DNA of 64,000 nt. It comes from Christensenellaceae bacterium Phil7 (lineage in GTDB: Bacteria > Bacillota > Clostridia > Christensenellales > CAG-138). The notes below the pieces were generated by a model. The model was not told where the DNA came from. It did no database searches and saw only the letters and a list, made by a program, of their open reading frames with translations. A program made the position numbers and the translations under genes. The DNA lies in NCBI GenBank assembly GCA_001940845.1, contig MSGV01000043.1, positions 1-64,000 on the forward strand, read 5' to 3'. Below are positions 11,337 to 53,171 of the stretch, in pieces. Within the stretch, counting starts at the first letter, position 1. The number at the start of each line of letters is the position of its first letter.

Positions 11337-11371
11337 TTGGAATGATTCCTCCTTGTCACAGTATCAAATAA

Positions 11372-11485
11372 ATATCCCCCGACCATAGGACAGGGGATGA
11401 AGAAAGTTATTGCATAACAAACAAAACTCTTAATTCACCTCGGCAGGAAATTAAGCATTACGGCACCTGCTGTCTATGGCGGATA
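11372..11485 (-). ncRNA. Ribosomal protein L10 leader (autoregulatory mRNA structure)
   Basis: Minus strand contains CCATAGACAGCAGGTGCC ... TCCTGCCGAGGTG ... CCTGTCCTATGG, the characteristic L10-leader pairing, directly upstream of rplJ. Confidence 0.88.
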
Positions 11486-11574
11486 TTCATTTGTCTATTC
11501 ATTTTAGCCCTTTATTGGGTATTTGTCAATGGAAAACCGCAAGAATTCCAAATATATTTAATCCTGCTGCCAGC

Positions 11575-51476: not shown

Positions 51477-52616
51477 TTATTCAAGCTCATCCGAGCCCGA
51501 ATCTTCAATTTTATTTATCGAGTTTCCATCAAATACAATGGACGAAAACTCGAGTTTCAGCTCCTTGCGCTCCTTATCCGTGAAGGTATATATCCAGCCA
51601 AATTCAGCATTGGAGCTGCTCTCCGGGAAAATAAAGGTGATATTTGCATAATCCAACTTTTTCTTTTCAACCGAAACAGCACTTGCAACGCTTTCTAAGA
51701 TCTGGTCGCTACGCTCACTCATTATCTTCGTTGTCGGATCATAGTGCAAAGTTATGCTTCTTCCATCTTCCGAAGTGAAAGTGCCTACATAAAAGGTTCC
51801 ATCCTCTGTCTTTTCTCGCTTGACTATCAAATCGATTTTCTCAGACCCACCAAAGGCTTTCCCTATCTCCTTTTCAGAATCTGATTGCCTCTTATAGAAT
51901 ACATATCCTATTATTGCAGCAACGCTTATGATAAGGGCAAGAATAAGAGAAATTATATGCTTTATTGTAATTTTCAGTGTTTTCGGTTTGCAATGGGTAT
52001 ACCCAAGTTTATAAGTTGCCGCATTTAATGCGCCAAGCCATAATACAAGCAGAACACATTCAAGCGGAAACAGTGCTGTATTCTTTGCAACCCTTGCAAT
52101 TGTGATAAATTCATAGGGTGCATTATAAAAAACATTATTAAACCACGTCATGATAAGGGGATTGACAATAAAATTGCAGATCACGACAACGGTTAAGCGC
52201 GAAAGCATTACGCGCAAGGTTGAAAGCTGCTGCCTATATAGGAACAATGCAAAGATAAATCCGCTAAGCATTTCTACCGCTATAAATGGGAAGAAATATT
52301 GTCCAATCGGAAAAAGCACCGCTCCCAAGGTGTCGCTGACCGCGCCAACGAGCAGAGCAACTATAGGACCATAAATCATTGATCCGGCTGAATTTATCAG
52401 GAAATCAAATCCAAAATAAAGCGCCGGCGGCATGATCGGTATACGGAAATTTTTGATGACTACACGAATAGCAATTATAATTGCCGCAAGCACAAGAGTG
52501 CGGATGCTTGTGAGCTCGTTAAACGAAAGTTGCCAATAACGTGCGTTGAATGGGTTTTTGAAAACCTCTCTGGATGGTGCAGTACGTCTTTTGACTGCTG
52601 TCTGGTTTTTTTCCAT
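51477..52616 (-). CDS. folT: Folate ECF transporter S component (FolT) with extra C-terminal TM and extracytoplasmic domain
   Basis: IMPPALYFGFDFLINSAGSMIYGPIVALLVGAVSDTLGAVLFPIGQYFFPFIAVEMLSGFIFALFLY; downstream of THF-riboswitch-like RNA. Confidence 0.82.
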   Translation of the reverse strand: MEKNQTAVKRRTAPSREVFKNPFNARYWQLSFNELTSIRTLVLAAIIIAIRVVIKNFRIPIMPPALYFGFDFLINSAGSMIYGPIVALLVGAVSDTLGAVLFPIGQYFFPFIAVEMLSGFIFALFLYRQQLSTLRVMLSRLTVVVICNFIVNPLIMTWFNNVFYNAPYEFITIARVAKNTALFPLECVLLVLWLGALNAATYKLGYTHCKPKTLKITIKHIISLILALIISVAAIIGYVFYKRQSDSEKEIGKAFGGSEKIDLIVKREKTEDGTFYVGTFTSEDGRSITLHYDPTTKIMSERSDQILESVASAVSVEKKKLDYANITFIFPESSSNAEFGWIYTFTDKERKELKLEFSSIVFDGNSINKIEDSGSDELE

Positions 52617-52752
52617 AAAAAATCGAATCCTCCTAACTAGAGCATTCGTTGTTACCCGGGCAAAACAAAATCTTTTAAATCTAAATATCACAACGAGTTA
52701 TTCAACTCTATTTAATACCTGATCCAATCGTTATATGCAATTGCCCAATATT

Positions 52753-52950
52753 GTAACAGCGGGATGCGGTGACGGCACAGCAACCTCCGTCATTGCGGAA
52801 CCGAATCAGCATTGCCGTATGCCGGCTCTGATATCGGTGCTGCGCAGCCCTGTTCGGTATTTGCGCATCCGCCTGACTGAGTTTTCGTTTGAGGATCAAC
52901 TCCCTGTATCCTCAACACTTGTGAAAAACTCGCTGTCACCTACTCTGTCG
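52753..52950 (-). ncRNA. Tetrahydrofolate (THF) riboswitch-like element with a large insertion
   Basis: Minus strand: ACAG-AGTAG-GTGAC ... AAGTG[TTGAGGAT]ACAGGGAGTTG[ATCCTCAA]ACGAAAACTC ... GTCAC-CGCATCCCG-CTGT, matching THF-I signatures (GAGUAG, AAGUG, GGGAnnUUG, ACGAA, GCAUCC); P1 and P2 pairings close; ~135 nt upstream of folT. Confidence 0.8.
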
Positions 52951-53171
52951 CAGGTATGATAGCAGATGTATCGGTAAATGTCAACATATATTAACAATTC
53001 ATTTTGCTTGATAATTTTATTCTTATATCTACTTGAATGATAAAACACATTTTCTCCATTCCCTTTCCGCAAAAAAACATTAAATATTCATAAATGATGC
53101 AAAAAGTTCATTTCCAATTAACAATAAAAATGGTATAATAGGCTCAGGTAAAAAAAAGGGGATCTATATTT

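Follow-up and report, generated by a model that had tools for sequence, protein, structure and literature searches.

A THF-I riboswitch with an expanded, branched P4 arm precedes folT in an uncultured gut Clostridia bacterium

The folT locus and its aptamer

The window, i.e., the whole 64,000-nt stretch of DNA that was analyzed, derives from an uncultured gut Clostridia bacterium. Its minus strand carries gene folT (51477–52616), for the S component of a folate ECF transporter (TIGR04518, 83 bits against a cut-off of 60), whose product resembles the ECF-FolT structures 5d3m and 4z7f (E of 1e-12 or better). This product also bears a C-terminal extension of around 185 aa past the S-component domain (51477–52030), the match to TIGR04518 ending at residue 194. 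At 139 nt upstream of this folate-uptake gene, with folT downstream on the same strand, there is a genuine class-I tetrahydrofolate (THF-I) riboswitch, whose aptamer spans positions 52755–52949.

The aptamer matches Rfam family RF01831 with 61.6 bits (E of 1.5e-13; gathering threshold, 36) along positions 1–99 of the 99 in the model, in an alignment that includes 94 inserted nucleotides, all within the P4 hairpin of the model. A preliminary description of this DNA had recognized the THF-I landmarks, in order and on the minus strand, and had proposed as a check an alignment to the Rfam model across the insertion; the full-model, end-to-end match bears out the former and provides the latter. Because the insertion is long, the element was missed in an Rfam scan of the whole window and appeared only as a truncated match of 33.6 bits in a genome-scale Rfam search. 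The folding z value was −4.7 both for the aptamer region (205 nt) and for P4 alone (102 nt; MFE of −43.6 kcal/mol), so that the structure goes beyond chance.

The core of the aptamer could be traced in the Rfam alignment. The 5′ strand of P1 (ACAG, 52945–52948) pairs with CUGU at 52756–52759, and that of P2 (GGUGAC-A-GCGAGU, 52928–52940), kept in 11 congeners, with a 3′ strand at 52768–52781, so as to form GGUGAC..GUCACC plus an upper part GCGAGU/GCUGUGC. The P3 hairpin (52887–52918) exposes the pseudoknot loop ACAGGGAGUUG at 52897–52907, the receptor strand of which, GCAUCCCG, lies at 52760–52767; both sequences are identical in the congeners. The consensus of the three-way junction is also present, with AAGUG, the conserved element ACGAA (52884–52888) and a P2 with a bulged G, and the sequences AACGAAAAC..GUUGCUGU, which flank P4 on both sides, are invariant across the genus. 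From this sequence, the aptamer is predicted to bind reduced folate. It resembles other RF01831 members in P1, P2, P3, the AAGUG/ACGAA junction, the pseudoknot loop and its receptor, and the position upstream of folT, and differs from them in a P4 that is branched and not of ordinary size, at 102 nt, although the model leaves P4 length variable and this length does not define the family. THF-II riboswitches (PMC6800512, PMC9881143) likewise sense tetrahydrofolate and are associated with folate-related genes, but they have a distinct architecture, Gram-negative hosts and folE genes, and are not the RNA found here.

One helix of the preliminary description, GAGUUU/AAACUC, is not one of the helices of THF-I and lacks conservation, its AACUC strand occurring in only 6 of 11 congeners. 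GAGU forms instead part of the upper P2, where it pairs with GCU of the invariant GCUGU, and the pairing of P2 is kept in all congeners. The GAGUUU/AAACUC pairing is possible and is the one that minimum-energy folding of the RNA by itself prefers (−70.9 vs. −63.7 kcal/mol for the THF-I junction), a fold calculated without pseudoknot or ligand.

Leader organization and a model for switching

An extended −10 promoter close to the consensus (TTGACA-17 nt-TATCAT, with TG before the −10; 11/12 matches in a consensus scan) occupies positions 52956–52984 of the minus strand. Because the promoter ends at 52956, and the aptamer begins about 7 nt after, transcription should start with the first base of the aptamer, around position 52949. 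Nothing resembling a terminator was found.

Downstream of the aptamer, the Shine-Dalgarno sequence (SD) AGGAGG (52629–52634) is located within a sequestor hairpin, CGAAU-G-CUCU..GGAG-G-AUUCG (52624–52648), which forms in the MFE structures of this genome and of congener G004 with arms CGAAUGCUCU..GGAGGAUUCG. Immediately upstream of the sequestor, GUAACAACG (52647–52655) can pair at 8/9 positions with a putative anti-sequestor strand, CGCUGUUAC (52753–52761), which overlaps the 3′ strand of P1; both are largely paired to each other in the MFE of the leader. In this species, the sequestor and the anti-sequestor overlap by only two bases. The other congeners show an equivalent sequestor/anti-sequestor arrangement, with different sequences, and these foldings are independent of the size of P4. 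Sequence comparison places an A+T-rich loop or hairpin between the anti-sequestor strands (52656–52752), which is also expanded, with around 97 nt and a GAGUUGAAUAACUC hairpin vs. around 35 nt in G004.

In the model suggested by these foldings, binding of reduced folate to the aptamer would stabilize P1, and this would keep its 3′ strand (CGCUG) from the anti-sequestor; the SD would stay paired in CGAAUGCUCU/GGAGGAUUCG and folT would be off. With folate scarce, CGCUGUUAC would pair with GUAACAACG, the sequestor would weaken and folT would be made, P4 taking no part in the switching. The leader fits a translational OFF switch, located downstream of the aptamer and using the 3′ strand of P1, and we infer its OFF direction from this model. 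We consider it very probable that the THF-I riboswitch controls the translation of folT in this way, and that the additional ~100 nt are a peripheral, expanded P4 that is outside of the switching part.

The expanded P4 and its variation within the genus

The structured insertion of about 100 nt that had been noticed in the preliminary description is real, and corresponds to the 102 nt of P4 (52782–52883), the variable P4 of RF01831. P4 is branched, with stems AACUC/GAGGUU, GUCA/UGAC and GCGGA/UCCGC and two hairpins. The first of them, P4a (UGCGC-AAAUA-CC-GAACA-GG-GCU-GCGCA, 52841–52867; arms GCGCAAAUACC..GGGCUGCGC), is common to four congeners, and its stem includes the segment GCUGCGCAGC that had also been pointed out. 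The second one, P4b (ACCGA-U-AUCAG..CUGAU-UCGGU, 52800–52838), is unique to this species and is the hairpin ACCGAUAUCAG..CUGAUUCGGU, with GCCG/CGGC inside, of that same description (z of −3.1). The extra ~100 nt are thus an unusually large, branched form of a known variable arm, and the RNA departs somewhat from the usual form of a known riboswitch, at a site already known to vary. At the three-way junction, P4 would act as a peripheral arm that folds on its own and brings the 3′ strand of P2 back to its partner like any other P4 hairpin, with a role that is probably neutral or stabilizing. Of the three options put forward for the insertion, a peripheral element is the one that fits best; an expression platform is contradicted, and a second ligand site left without support, by the comparisons that follow.

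The riboswitch was present in the 11 genomes of the genus, that is, this genome and 10 congeneric MAGs found with a THF DNA pattern and labeled as Clostridia, Christensenellaceae, Christensenella sp., Clostridiales or Bacillota (two as Bacillota only); several of these MAGs come from the gut of sheep, goat or buffalo. P4 measures 24, 37, 38, 39, 39, 41, 54, 56, 56, 64, and 102 nt in these genomes, i.e., 24–64 nt in the 10 congeners vs. 102 nt here. In G001 and G006 it consists of a plain hairpin; G002, G005, G007, and G008 have a GCGC-AAAU hairpin, while P4a occurs in G003, G004, G009, G010, and this genome. An alignment of the five P4a sequences contained pairs in 94% of the cells, vs. 24–44% in slid controls, and two of the five outer pairs were changed on both sides; the internal loop and the CC/GG clamp were nearly invariant, while the flanking stems differed. 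Covariation in relatives, which the preliminary description had suggested looking for, was thus found for the stem of P4a, as suggestive rather than strong evidence given the five related sequences, and not for P4b, which lacks relatives: the 61-nt stretch compared for it was without matches in the 102 other genomes of the family and is single copy in its own genome.

Variable stem-loop insertions are common in riboswitches, and Barrick and Breaker (2007) described them as stable stem-loops that leave the aptamer core undisturbed (PMC2258182). The P4 studied here is of this kind, being stable, poorly conserved and placed at a tolerated site, with a z of −4.7, a length of 24–102 nt in the genus and a P4b that is unique; a part of it, P4a, is nonetheless conserved within the genus, beyond what that description predicts. 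The TPP riboswitch, which may carry a P3a, and further riboswitches that have variable insertions (PMC2258182) similarly accommodate an extra stable stem-loop domain at a site that the aptamer tolerates, but TPP riboswitches belong to another class, and the site used here is P4 of THF-I.

In the alignment, P4a shows more conservation than would be required of a purely neutral spacer. It might be a functional module (GCGC-AAAUA-CC-loop-GG-RCU-GCGC), for tertiary contacts or protein binding, that tunes folding or affinity, with P4b as an accessory stem, an explanation that we regard as rather unlikely. It recurs in five species with a covarying stem and a near-invariant internal loop and clamp amid changing flanking stems, and the GCGC-AAAU hairpin is kept in four more species; however, P4a is absent from the plain hairpins of G001 and G006, has no matching Rfam family and did not turn up as an RNA element at other places of the family genomes, and five related sequences are few, with a conservation inflated by common ancestry. 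A more specific proposal is somewhat less likely still: that P4a (GCGC-AAAUWCC-loop-GGRCU-GCGC) is a previously undescribed module of one Christensenellaceae-like Clostridia genus, which would dock on the aptamer, the leader or a protein to tune folate sensing, with P4b as its extension. A mobile or genome-wide motif was rejected, since a search with CAAATWCCGN{2,6}GGRCTG returned around 20 matches in 103 genomes, of which the inspected ones outside of THF leaders look coding, with no Rfam match at these sites; many of them represent a single coding motif that recurs with the reading VKFRKGWD, which we take to be from dihydrouridine synthase. A coding origin was also discarded for the insertion itself, since P4 lengths in the genus differ by non-multiples of three and there is no conserved frame.

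It is very unlikely that an expression platform is built into the insertion, with P4 pairing to the ribosome-binding site or gating translation otherwise. Certain P4s do contain short anti-SD-like stretches (ACCUCC in G004, UCCUUU in G007), but the complementarity to the SD varies among species and is inconsistent across the genus. Additionally, members with small and large P4s have a complete sequestor/anti-sequestor downstream; this proposal of the preliminary description is contradicted because the switching part is located there, whatever the size of P4, and does not include it. Equally improbable is the chance landing of a recent mobile or repeat sequence in P4: P4b is indeed found only in this species, but it is single copy there, absent from the other 102 genomes, and embedded between paired P4 strands as would result from hairpin growth. 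The least probable reading, a second aptamer for another ligand in a tandem or composite sensor, could draw on the size and branched fold of the insertion, and on the two folate sites already present in THF-I, one in the P2/P3/P4 junction and another in the pseudoknot (PMC11231146, PMC6614920), but in the riboswitch region no second Rfam family matched up to E = 10, congeners can do without P4 or have a minimal one, and a conserved aptamer is excluded for P4b by its lack of relatives in the family.

Long P4 arms and other RNAs in related genomes

As an expanded variable arm, the P4 described here has counterparts in other lineages. Among the full-length THF-I matches listed for the family, the order and the class, total length was 85–159 nt, mostly about 92–128 nt, the longer ones including G679 (153-nt aptamer, P4 insert of 56 nt) and G718 (159-nt aptamer, P4 insert of 63 nt). 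Additionally, in G380 (L118, ~1501–1730) only a truncated match was reported for an aptamer of around 228 nt, in which a P4 of around 150 nt is one very long hairpin. Large P4s are therefore rare but recurrent, also in unrelated relatives. Default Rfam/covariance-model searches truncate or miss the THF-I members with the longest P4s and, because of this, the number of such members is underestimated. P4 of THF-I tolerates a branched domain that equals the remainder of the aptamer in size, and one genus offers a natural series of P4 lengths (24–102 nt) bearing on the part of P4 in folate sensing.

The comparisons also retrieved six THF-like RNAs from other genera with 31–38 bits (L113:1501–1620, L114:1501–1620, L117:1501–1611, L110:1501–1587, L111:1501–1585, and L112:1501–1587). 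They keep P1, AGUAG (AGUAA in L114) and the pseudoknot loop and receptor, and lack the AAGUG..ACGAA consensus of the three-way junction; ECF-S/FolT-like ORFs occur just downstream in L110, L113, L114, and L117, the loci whose ORFs were examined. These six RNAs look like natural variants with only the pseudoknot site, and as such bear on the two-site model of THF-I. In sister genera (L021, L046, L049, L055, L056, L057, and L073), an extra hairpin between the 5′ strand of P2 and P3 produces a four-way junction. Genome G581 contains ZTP and THF riboswitches in tandem (L124:199–275 and 367–486), with around 90 nt between them. Lastly, the window itself includes a ribosomal protein L10 leader (RF00557, 70.4 bits) on the minus strand, at 11360–11497.
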